Of a DNA stretch of 32,882 bases, positions 16,902-21,114 are shown piece after piece. The stretch lies in assembly GCA_014879865.1 (NCBI GenBank), contig JACSRG010000143.1:1-32882 (forward strand), written 5' to 3'. This DNA comes from Anaerolinea sp. GTDB taxonomy: Bacteria; Chloroflexota; Anaerolineae; Aggregatilineales; Phototrophicaceae. Position numbers and translations under genes: made by a program. Within the stretch, counting starts at the first letter, position 1; the number at the start of each line of letters is the position of its first letter. A model generated the notes under the pieces. It saw only the letters and a program-made list of their open reading frames with translations, did not search any database and had not been told where the DNA came from.

Positions 16902-19487
16902 GTGTCTTTCATGCGCATCCCCATCATCTTGCGACTCGCGGGACGCTACGTGCGCCGCCGTTTGCTGCAAAGCGTCCTGTTCGTGATCGGCGTGGCGTTG
17001 GGCGTGGCGGTGGTGATTGCCATCGACCTCGCCAACGGCTCTGCCAGTCGCGCTTTTAACCTGAGCGCCGAGAGCATCACCGGTAGGGCGACGCACCAGA
17101 TCATCGGCAGTCCGAGCGGCTTACCGAGCGATTTCTATGTCCAACTGCGCGTCGATCTCGGCTTGCGGGACTCCGCGCCCGTCGTGGAGGATTACGCGCA
17201 GGTGATCGACCTCGGCGACCGTCCGCTGCGCGTGCTCGGCGTCGATCCGTTCGCCGAACCGCCGTTCCGTTCGTACCTGACCGAAGTTCGCGTACAGGGC
17301 GAAACGCAAACCGCCTACGAGGGACTCGCCGCTTTTATCAGCCAGCCAAACACCGTGCTGATCTCGGCGCGCGTGGCGGAGCGCTACGGCATCCAAGCCG
17401 GGGATACGATCACCGTGCAGCCTGCCGCCGAGCAGGTCGAAATGCGCGTGGTCGGCTTGCTGCAAACCGCCGACGAGGTCAGCGCGCAGGCGTTGGATAA
17501 CCTGATCCTGACCGACATTGCCACCGCGCAGGAGATCGTCGGGCGTCCGGGGACGATCAGCCGCGTCGATCTGATTCTGCCGGAAGGCTACGACCTCGAC
17601 CTGATCCGCGCGATTTTGCCTGCTGGCGCGACGATCACCACCCCGCGCGATCAACAGAGCGCGCTCGGTCAAATGACCGCCGCCTTTGAACTCAACTTGC
17701 AGGCGTTGAGTCTGCTGGCGCTGGTGGTCGGCGTCTTCCTGATCTACAACACGGTTTCGTTCAGCGTCGTGCAGCGCCGCCCGATACTGGGAATTTTGCG
17801 CGCACTCGGCGCGACCCGCCGCCAAATCTTCGCGCTGATTTTGTCCGAGGCGCTGCTCTTGGGGTTCGTCGGCACGATCTTCGGCTTGGCGCTGGGGATC
17901 ATCTTCGGGCGCGCGCTGGTCGGCTTGGTCGCGCAGACCATCAGCGACCTGTACTTCGCGGTTGACGTGCAGCGCGTGACGGTCGATCCGCTCACGCTGC
18001 TGATCGGCGCGGGGATCGGGATCGGCGTGAGTCTCGTCTCGGCGCTCGTCCCGTCCATCGACGCCACGTCCACGCCGCCCGCCGGGTCGATGCGGCGCTC
18101 GGCGCTCGAAGAGCGGGCACGGCGGTTGATCATCCCGATCACGGGCGCGGCGCTCGTTCTGATCCTTGCGGGGATCGCGCTGCTCAACCTGCCCACCAAC
18201 TCGCTGATCATCAGCTTCGGCGCGCTGTTCGCGGTGATCGTCGGCGGGGCGCTGTTCACGCCCGCCGCGTTGATCGTCGGAATGCGCGCCGTCACCCCGC
18301 TCACGGATCGGCTGTTCGGCGTGGTCGGGCGGATGTCACCGCGCGCCGTGTCGCGTTCGCTCAGCCGCACGTCGGTCGCCGTCGCCGCGCTGACCGTCGC
18401 CGTCAGCGTGATCGTCGGCGTCAGCGTGATGATCGGCTCGTTCCGTAATACCGTCTCCGATTGGCTCGACACGACGCTCGGCGCGGATATTTACGTTTCC
18501 CCGCCGCAGGTGATCGCAACCCGCGCGACGGCGGATGTTGATCCGGCGGTTGCCGACGTGATCGCCGGGGTGGAAGGCGTCGCACAGGTGATCAGCGGGC
18601 GGTCGGTCAACGTGACCGCGCCCGATTTCCCCGACCTGCCGCCCGTCACGCTCAACGTCGGTTCGGAGGATGTGACCGGGGCGCGCCGCCGCTTCGTCTG
18701 GTCAACGGTGAACGACGCCGATTACTTCGCGGCGCTCAAAACGGGCGCGGTGATCATGGTCAGCGAACCGTTCGCCTTCCGGCGCGGCATCACACAGGCG
18801 AACAACACGCTGACTTTGCTGACAGATCGCGGCGAACAGGCTTTCACCGTGATCGGCGTGTACTACGACTACTCAACCGATCAGGGGTCGGTGCTGATGG
18901 CGGATGATGTTTACCGCCAGTTCTACGACGATCCGTACATCTCGACGCTGGCGGCATTCATCACCCCCGGCGCGGATGTGAACGCGGTGCTCGATGGCAT
19001 CCGCACCGCTTTAGCCGGGAGCGACTTGATCGCGCGCAGCAACGTGACTCTGCGCGCCAGCGTGTTCGAGGTCTTCGAGCGGACGTTCGCGATCACCGGG
19101 GCGCTGCAACTGCTGGCGGTGGTCGTGGCGTTCGTCGGCATTCTCAGCGCGCTGATGGCGCTGCAACTGGAGCAGACGCGGCAGTACGGCGTCATGCGGG
19201 CTATCGGCATGACGGGGCGGCAGTTATGGAACTACACGCTGATCCAAACCGGGCTGATGGGGATCACGGCGGGTCTGCTGGCGATGCCGGTCGGCGTGGC
19301 GCTGGCGATCATCCTGATCTACGTGATCAACGTGCGCTCGTTCGGCTGGACGATGCAGTTGACGCTGAGTCCGGGCGAGTTCGCGCTTTCGTTCGGCGTG
19401 GCGGTGATCGCGGCGCTGGCGGCGGGGGTGTATCCGGCACGGAAGATCAGTCAGTTGGTGACGGCGGTCGCGCTCAGGAATGAATAG
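16902..19487 (+). CDS. FtsX-like/MacB-type ABC transporter permease with two FtsX domains
   Basis: YVRRRLLQSVLFVIGVALGVAVVIAIDLANGSA; FLIYNTVSFSVVQRRPILGILRALGATRRQIF; LEQTRQYGVMRAIGMTGRQLW; start may be ATG at 16911. Confidence 0.92.
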   Translation: MSFMRIPIILRLAGRYVRRRLLQSVLFVIGVALGVAVVIAIDLANGSASRAFNLSAESITGRATHQIIGSPSGLPSDFYVQLRVDLGLRDSAPVVEDYAQVIDLGDRPLRVLGVDPFAEPPFRSYLTEVRVQGETQTAYEGLAAFISQPNTVLISARVAERYGIQAGDTITVQPAAEQVEMRVVGLLQTADEVSAQALDNLILTDIATAQEIVGRPGTISRVDLILPEGYDLDLIRAILPAGATITTPRDQQSALGQMTAAFELNLQALSLLALVVGVFLIYNTVSFSVVQRRPILGILRALGATRRQIFALILSEALLLGFVGTIFGLALGIIFGRALVGLVAQTISDLYFAVDVQRVTVDPLTLLIGAGIGIGVSLVSALVPSIDATSTPPAGSMRRSALEERARRLIIPITGAALVLILAGIALLNLPTNSLIISFGALFAVIVGGALFTPAALIVGMRAVTPLTDRLFGVVGRMSPRAVSRSLSRTSVAVAALTVAVSVIVGVSVMIGSFRNTVSDWLDTTLGADIYVSPPQVIATRATADVDPAVADVIAGVEGVAQVISGRSVNVTAPDFPDLPPVTLNVGSEDVTGARRRFVWSTVNDADYFAALKTGAVIMVSEPFAFRRGITQANNTLTLLTDRGEQAFTVIGVYYDYSTDQGSVLMADDVYRQFYDDPYISTLAAFITPGADVNAVLDGIRTALAGSDLIARSNVTLRASVFEVFERTFAITGALQLLAVVVAFVGILSALMALQLEQTRQYGVMRAIGMTGRQLWNYTLIQTGLMGITAGLLAMPVGVALAIILIYVINVRSFGWTMQLTLSPGEFALSFGVAVIAALAAGVYPARKISQLVTAVALRNE

Positions 19488-19489
19488 GG

Positions 19490-19731
19490 AAGGTTAACCG
19501 CAGAGAGCGCAGAGAAAAGAGAGGAAGAAAAGAAAGGGCGCAACGCAAAGGCGCAAAGTCGCCAAGACGCAAAGGATAGGGATTTAGGGACGCGCGAGAC
19601 TGCGGAATGAGTAAAAAAGGTTAACCACAGAGAACACAGAGAACGCAGAGAAAAGAGAGAAGAAGAAGGAAAAGAAAGGGCGTAACGGAAAGGCGCAAGG
19701 ACGCGAAGACGCAAAGGAGAGGGAGAAAAGG
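19490..19731. repeat. Tandem pair of family B intergenic repeats (GGTTAACC[G/A]CAGAGA..CGCAGAGAAAAGAGAG...CGCAAAGGCGCAAAG...)
   Basis: Two divergent copies at about 19490-19590 and about 19617-19731 with the same word order. Confidence 0.88.
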
Positions 19732-19737
19732 GCTTGA

Positions 19738-21114
19738 TTATGCCGGGATTGCCCCGCCAATGCCCAACACGCGCCAGCCGCCGAGCAGGTAAATCCAGAT
19801 CAGGATCGCGTAGGCGATCAGTGTGAGGATCAATAGAGGGATGCGATGAGGGGGAGTCCCCCGACGAGAAACGAAGAAGCGGACAATGATAAGCTGCAAA
19901 ATTACAGTAATCACCATGACGACCAGCGCTACAACGATGTGGATCAGTAATGATACATCCTTCAGGGATGTAAATAGGTTAATGGCGAAGTACACGCTCT
20001 GCCCCGCCGCCATCGCCACAAGAGGGACACTCATAGAATAAGCTAAGAAGAGAGAAAAGGTTGAACCGTCATATTTGAACACGTAATGCAGCGGTGGTAG
20101 GCTAACAATCGAAAATAGGGTTAGAAGCAAAAGGCTCAACCCGACACCTGCGAGCGAAACTGGCAAATATGAAAAGATCAAAACTTGACTACTTATCACC
20201 CCGACAATGGGTAGACCGAGTGCAAGGACAATTTGATACGGATACGGTTCATAAACGTCTGTCGGAATGACTAGAGTAACCAACACAGTCAATAGGATGC
20301 TGCCGATGATCCAAACAGGCGGCGACACTGTATATACAATACCGGTTTCTGCCGGAATTAACCTATACTGCTCTGAAAGCACCGGGAAACAAGCGATAAG
20401 CAGTGGTAGGACGAGCAAGACGAGCATGATCGGCTGATTTGACAAACCCCGATAGAAATACTTTCTGCGGCTCAAACCATCAACTTGTTCTGGTTGGAAG
20501 AAGTACCAATACAACAACCTGATTTGATCCACCGGATTCCAATGCGATGGTTCGCGCAGATTCGTTCGGGTTTCAACCACTCTATACGATGTTGCTGGCT
20601 TCGGCAGCAACGTTGATTTGTGAGTTGATTGAGGAGCTTTCGTGACTGGTGGGTAGGTTGAACGTGACTCGCTAGGGGTGTAAGTAGATGTTGTTGGCGG
20701 CGGCGGTGATAGCCCTCCCCGATTCTGCTGGATCGCGTCGATCAGTCGTCCCATTTCGCCGGAATAACGCGAGTTATCGCGCACATCGACGTACTGCGTG
20801 CCGAAAATTTGAAACGGCGTACTTTCGGCTTCATCACCGCGCACGAGGATCGGGAAAATCGGCTTTTTCCATGCCTTCGCGTAGCCGATCTCTTTCTGCA
20901 CCCATTCGGATTGTTTCGCATCAGGGGAGAGCAGCACCACCAGCACGCGCGTCGCGTCGATGGCGCGCTCGATTGCCTGAAACCATTCCGGCGTCCCCGG
21001 CGTGAGGTTGGCGTCCGTCCACACTGACAAGCCCGCATCCGCCAGCGATTTTTGCACGCGGTCTTTCATCGCGGAGTCTTTGCGGCTGTAGCTCAGGAAA
21101 ACGTCGTGCGCCAT
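19738..21114 (-). CDS. TIR-domain protein with C-terminal multi-TM region
   Basis: MAHDVFLSYSRKDSAMKDRVQKSLADAGLSVWTDAN...VLVVLLSPDAKQSEWVQKEIGYA is TIR-like with candidate catalytic Glu; about 100-aa linker, then several hydrophobic helices. Confidence 0.88.
   Translation of the reverse strand: MAHDVFLSYSRKDSAMKDRVQKSLADAGLSVWTDANLTPGTPEWFQAIERAIDATRVLVVLLSPDAKQSEWVQKEIGYAKAWKKPIFPILVRGDEAESTPFQIFGTQYVDVRDNSRYSGEMGRLIDAIQQNRGGLSPPPPTTSTYTPSESRSTYPPVTKAPQSTHKSTLLPKPATSYRVVETRTNLREPSHWNPVDQIRLLYWYFFQPEQVDGLSRRKYFYRGLSNQPIMLVLLVLPLLIACFPVLSEQYRLIPAETGIVYTVSPPVWIIGSILLTVLVTLVIPTDVYEPYPYQIVLALGLPIVGVISSQVLIFSYLPVSLAGVGLSLLLLTLFSIVSLPPLHYVFKYDGSTFSLFLAYSMSVPLVAMAAGQSVYFAINLFTSLKDVSLLIHIVVALVVMVITVILQLIIVRFFVSRRGTPPHRIPLLILTLIAYAILIWIYLLGGWRVLGIGGAIPA

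Follow-up and report, generated by a model that had tools for sequence, protein, structure and literature searches.

The window (the whole 32,882-nucleotide stretch of Anaerolinea sp. DNA that was analyzed) carries a minus-strand gene for a protein in which an N-terminal TIR domain is joined by a disordered linker to a domain of seven transmembrane (TM) helices. A preliminary description of the sequence had proposed a single-gene fusion of TIR and multi-TM regions, and the ORF proved to be real, ATG-started and supported by its domains. The features at the locus are:

19738 to 21114, minus strand: TIR-7TM protein, 458 aa, ATG at 21114 and stop at 19738, defined by the ORF and a full-length homologue in genome G035
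20719 to 21114, minus strand: TIR domain, aa 1-132, defined by Pfam TIR_2, the SARM1/PdTIR alignment and the model
20890 to 20892, minus strand: codon of the catalytic-type Glu75, which lies with Trp71 in the TIR domain
20551 to 20718, minus strand: disordered Ser/Thr/Pro-rich linker, aa 133-188, defined by pLDDT, composition and poor conservation between homologues
19741 to 20550, minus strand: membrane domain, aa 189-458, defined by family alignments, search matches and models
19477 to 19730, no strand assigned: degenerate two-unit intergenic repeat, 3' of the stop codon

The linker of ~55 residues, which had been described as low-complexity, has a pLDDT of about 40-47 over most of its length in the AlphaFold model. 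The membrane domain is composed of a WNPVDQIRLLYW amphipathic stretch, seven TM helices and a C-terminal LGGWRVL; the helices, located at about aa 228-443, correspond to the ~230 aa of hydrophobic helices in the preliminary description. The balance of Lys and Arg residues (8 predicted inside versus 3 outside) weakly favors a cytosolic location for the N-terminal TIR domain. A full-length homologue is present in another genus (G035; E 1.4e-46 over aa 1-450) and the C-terminal part is by itself enough to define a family, indicating that the combination of TIR and membrane domain is far beyond chance. Searches of genome contig and viral contig collections with this single protein yielded no close relatives, a phage collection contained no match to the TIR-7TM protein, and matches in a plasmid collection cover the TIR part only. 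An Rfam scan of the window returned nothing, and a promoter and terminator scan gave signals no more frequent than chance.

The gene is flanked on one side by genes for an FtsX/MacB-type permease, its ABC ATPase and a HEAT-repeat protein, and on the other by PDH genes, including that for pyruvate dehydrogenase E1-alpha, such that the housekeeping surroundings initially noted are genuine. It is not a core syntenic gene: the FtsX and PDH groups lie on different contigs in genus mates, and no TIR gene was found upstream of PDH in those genus mates where the place could be read. The preliminary description also placed the gene between repeat arrays, and this did not hold. There is one two-unit repeat, on the 3' side only (19.48-19.73 kb), with units of about 140 nt that share a 61-nt core at 87% identity (GGTTAACCRCAGAG ... 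GCAAAGG) and a signature that matches seven times in the whole 6.4-Mb genome. No comparable repeat was found on the other side of the gene, at 21.12-21.25 kb. We therefore reject a mobile, repeat-bounded cassette, and the downstream repeat probably lies outside the gene's function. No defense models of note adjoin the gene, and PADLOC matches to the protein itself are confined to its TIR part.

The TIR domain and its use across the lineage

The assignment of the TIR domain is well supported. The TIR_2 profile (PF13676) matches aa 5-124 of 458 over profile positions 1-121 of 122 with an E value of 9.9e-23 and 81.4 bits, against a curated cut-off of 28 bits. The domain is modeled by AlphaFold with a pLDDT of about 95, and its best PDB matches are the TIR domains of TRR-2, SARM1 and MyD88, with SPARTA TIRs lower in the list. 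Within the motif SEWVQKE, W71 and E75 align with WVHKE of SARM1 and with PdTIR, and E75 corresponds to E642 of SARM1. The profile search and structural comparison that had been suggested earlier thus bear out the proposed TIR domain with its SxWxxxE pattern, and the catalytic-position Glu is present. The window protein is a candidate TIR NADase on this basis, although the Glu by itself does not prove activity. The same Glu is kept in seven of the eight proteins in which the membrane domain follows a TIR domain (TIR-TM proteins), the exception being that of G035, which has Gln, and nearly all other TIR domains compared in the lineage carry it as well. At L114 the TIR domain is degenerate and the membrane domain is retained. 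Together with the Gln in G035, this suggests that not every member depends on catalysis.

TIR domains are abundant in these bacteria. The genome containing the window (G000, 6.4 Mb) contains 35 TIR matches (two marginal), with partners that include TPR, WD40, AAA/NACHT-like, response-regulator and other domains, indicating that TIR is a shuffled module here. Matches at E <= 1e-10 occur in 58 of the 61 genomes searched. In a TIR tree, the TIR domains of TIR-TM proteins are scattered among those with other partners, and the G064 TIR groups with TIRs that lack the membrane domain; on this tree the TIR-TM fusion may have arisen once or repeatedly. Among the other combinations is one at L034, judged by eye, which couples TIR to a SUMF1-type (formylglycine-enzyme-like) domain; domains of this kind are targets of diversity-generating retroelements.

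A seven-helix membrane domain family in Anaerolineae

The membrane domain is marked by two conserved motifs, WNPxDQxRLLxW..P near its start and LGGWxVL at its end, and the window protein has both, with seven TM helices between them, as the family definition requires. Searches that began with the C-terminal part and continued with an alignment identified members in 16 of 98 genomes from the window's own taxonomic family, in 10 of a class-wide sample of 396 genomes, and almost nowhere in a phylum-wide sample; the named records that contain members are Anaerolineae or Chloroflexi MAGs. Among the 14 further genomes of the genus, only G014 yielded relatives of this domain, as copies that lack TIR. 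The domain exists as stand-alone proteins of about 240-260 aa (those at L046/L061, L048 and L063-L066 belong to the same family), and its N-terminal part also follows TPR-containing (L055) and zinc-ribbon (L053) proteins. It follows a TIR domain in eight proteins from six genomes: the one containing the window, G035, G065 (twice), G069 (twice), G081 and G064. A separate observation is a long protein at L129, which has a WNPLDYLRLLYW motif and, after it, a low-complexity hydrophobic tract (GGVAVGVA) of >100 residues.

We found no convincing match to the membrane domain in Pfam, NCBIfam or PHROGs. The model of a central family member has a pTM of 0.82, and comparison of the membrane domain model with the PDB and with viral folds gave no match at E <= 0.001. 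The 7TM domain is therefore a recurrent Anaerolineae family that is unnamed in the libraries and literature searched, and this family, plus its repeated fusion to TIR, is our main finding. Seven-helix TIR proteins of genus mates G001 and G006 have a similar layout, and we excluded them from the count because their TM part matches the family over 51 columns only (hhalign 69%).

The two parts of the protein appear to be under different constraint. In two pairs of relatives, dN/dS was about 0.12 for the TIR domain versus 0.22 and 0.48 for the TM domain; these Nei-Gojobori values are rough, because dS exceeds 1 in one pair and the second pair consists of the divergent G001/G006 proteins. Lower values for TIR suggest a conserved output module joined to a faster-changing membrane module. 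Composition differs as well: GC3 of the window gene is 0.74 in the TIR, 0.55 in the TM and 0.43 in the linker portion, compared with about 0.8 in the neighboring genes. The same split is seen in the homologue at L110 and is absent from most homologues; it may reflect a mosaic origin or merely relaxed codon use.

The eight TIR-TM genes have mostly housekeeping neighbors that differ at nearly every locus, except at sites shared by pairs of related genomes. Screening of these neighbors (by PADLOC for selected ones, by eye for the remainder) revealed no recurrent defense island. Ordinary toxin-antitoxin pairs lie within about 2 kb in G035 (Gp49/HTH) and G064 (HepT/MNT). In G065 a NUDIX gene overlaps the TIR-7TM stop codon (ATGA), and in G069 the TIR-7TM gene, a second TIR gene and a NUDIX gene lie in a row; the row spans 661-2736 of L043 and 6133-8704 of L107. 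ADP-ribose compounds are frequent substrates of NUDIX enzymes, so this neighbor is a hint of NAD-linked chemistry, and one that represents a single orthologous locus (G065/G069) rather than independent recurrence. TIR-7TM genes in G065 and G069 are also found antisense to and adjoining nuoL (L110 9272-10492 and L111 9209-10288), and in G069 the gene lies between nuoL and the apparent nuoM of a complex I operon.

These surroundings do not sustain the label of immune effector given in the preliminary description. Apart from the toxin-antitoxin pairs at two loci and the NUDIX gene at one orthologous pair, homologues are largely away from defense genes. Because none of the TIR-TM loci screened lies in a defense island, the TIR-7TM protein is not a proven phage-defense system; a role in phage defense is possible but unproven.

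Known TIR systems and candidate mechanisms

The protein does not belong to any described TIR system that we compared. Thoeris is rejected: the ThsA partner (SIR2-SLOG or TM-macro) is absent among the permease, ATPase, HEAT-repeat and PDH neighbors, ThsB models align to the TIR region alone, and the NCBIfam model for ThcB4 of type III Thoeris scores 25.7 bits against a cut-off of 220. Type II Thoeris (TIR ThsB plus TM-macro ThsA) likewise places TIR and TM parts within one pathway, but it uses two genes and a macro sensor, whereas here there is one gene without a macro or SLOG domain. A CBASS or Pycsar TIR effector is rejected since SAVED, STING and cyclase are neither fused nor adjacent; the SAVED_TIR model matches only through its TIR part (positions 14-136 of 404), and the CAP12-PCTIR_TIR match is below cut-off. 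Retron-TIR membership is ruled out by cut-offs and context.

TIR NADases become active on self-association, as described for SpbK (PMC12847820), TIR-STING (PMC9402430) and Cat1 (PMC12162218). SpbK, an antiphage protein of Bacillus subtilis, is similarly the product of one gene and pairs TIR with another domain through which TIRs are brought together (PMC12847820), but that partner binds YonE, a phage portal protein, no 7TM domain is described for SpbK, and the resemblance is in the TIR alone. Cat1, a CARF-TIR protein of type III CRISPR first found in a Chloroflexota genome, is also a TIR NADase switched on by assembly (PMC12162218); its TIR came up weakly in the PDB search (E 0.06), and it differs in having a CARF ligand-binding domain and CRISPR context, in place of which the window protein has a 7TM domain. 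Animal TLR and IL-1R proteins share a membrane part, a cytosolic TIR and possibly a receptor logic, yet they are single-pass proteins with an ectodomain and a C-terminal TIR, whereas here the TIR is N-terminal and the 7TM domain has no ectodomain. That resemblance is one of layout only.

The reading we favor, tentatively and at somewhat short of an even chance, is a TIR switch tethered to the membrane, whose output would be NAD+ cleavage, since TIR NADases need self-association and a linker-tethered 7TM domain is a natural clustering device. With the topology predicted above, the 7TM domain would anchor the protein and probably sense or oligomerize. Membrane domains might cluster in response to a ligand, envelope stress or phage injection, which would bring the TIRs together for TIR-TIR assembly or enzyme activation. 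NAD+ cleavage, the most likely output because TIR enzymes are active on self-association, would then deplete nucleotides or generate an ADPR-type signal in a cell under infection or stress. We consider it unlikely that the protein is a self-sufficient membrane TIR receptor, in which a 7TM domain of new fold would monitor the envelope or detect an infecting phage and, from within the cell, cluster TIR NADases without a partner gene.

The main rival, possible though on the unlikely side, is a non-catalytic hub whose TIR would dock other TIR proteins (TIR-WD40, TIR-TPR, TIR-AAA) at the membrane in ordinary signaling rather than immunity. The about 35 TIR matches with varied partners, the Gln of G035, the degenerate TIR of L114, and a housekeeping context with sites shared by related genomes (e.g. 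by nuoL in G065 and G069) are all consistent with a hub, but a pure scaffold would not need the Glu that is kept in seven of eight members and in nearly all TIRs compared. Improbable, in our view, is an abortive-infection effector in which the 7TM domain kills as a pore or depolarizer and the TIR is sensor or scaffold, close to the membrane-targeting effector first proposed. TM-domain effectors are known in type II Thoeris (TM-macro ThsA; PMC11204291), and the NUDIX genes of G065 and G069 and the toxin-antitoxin pairs of G035 and G064 would suit such a role; however, the domain is also encoded by itself, a strange arrangement for a killer lacking a control domain, the fold search gave no resemblance to known channels or pores, and a defense island is absent. 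An accessory gene of recent assembly or acquisition, with little function, would account for the lower GC3 of the TM and linker portions and for the absence of this form from genus mates, yet it is very improbable given that the ORF is intact, the motifs are conserved, relatives show purifying selection, and the domain family is spread through Anaerolineae.

The TIR effectors compared here (SpbK, Cat1, TIR-STING and Thoeris) respond to nucleotides or phage proteins, and none has a membrane domain of this type. The direct joining of a TIR to a polytopic membrane domain, in bacteria whose genomes each encode dozens of TIR proteins, would make this protein a candidate for TIR-based sensing at the envelope. 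The undescribed 7TM family is in its own right a new Anaerolineae domain family that is tractable for study.
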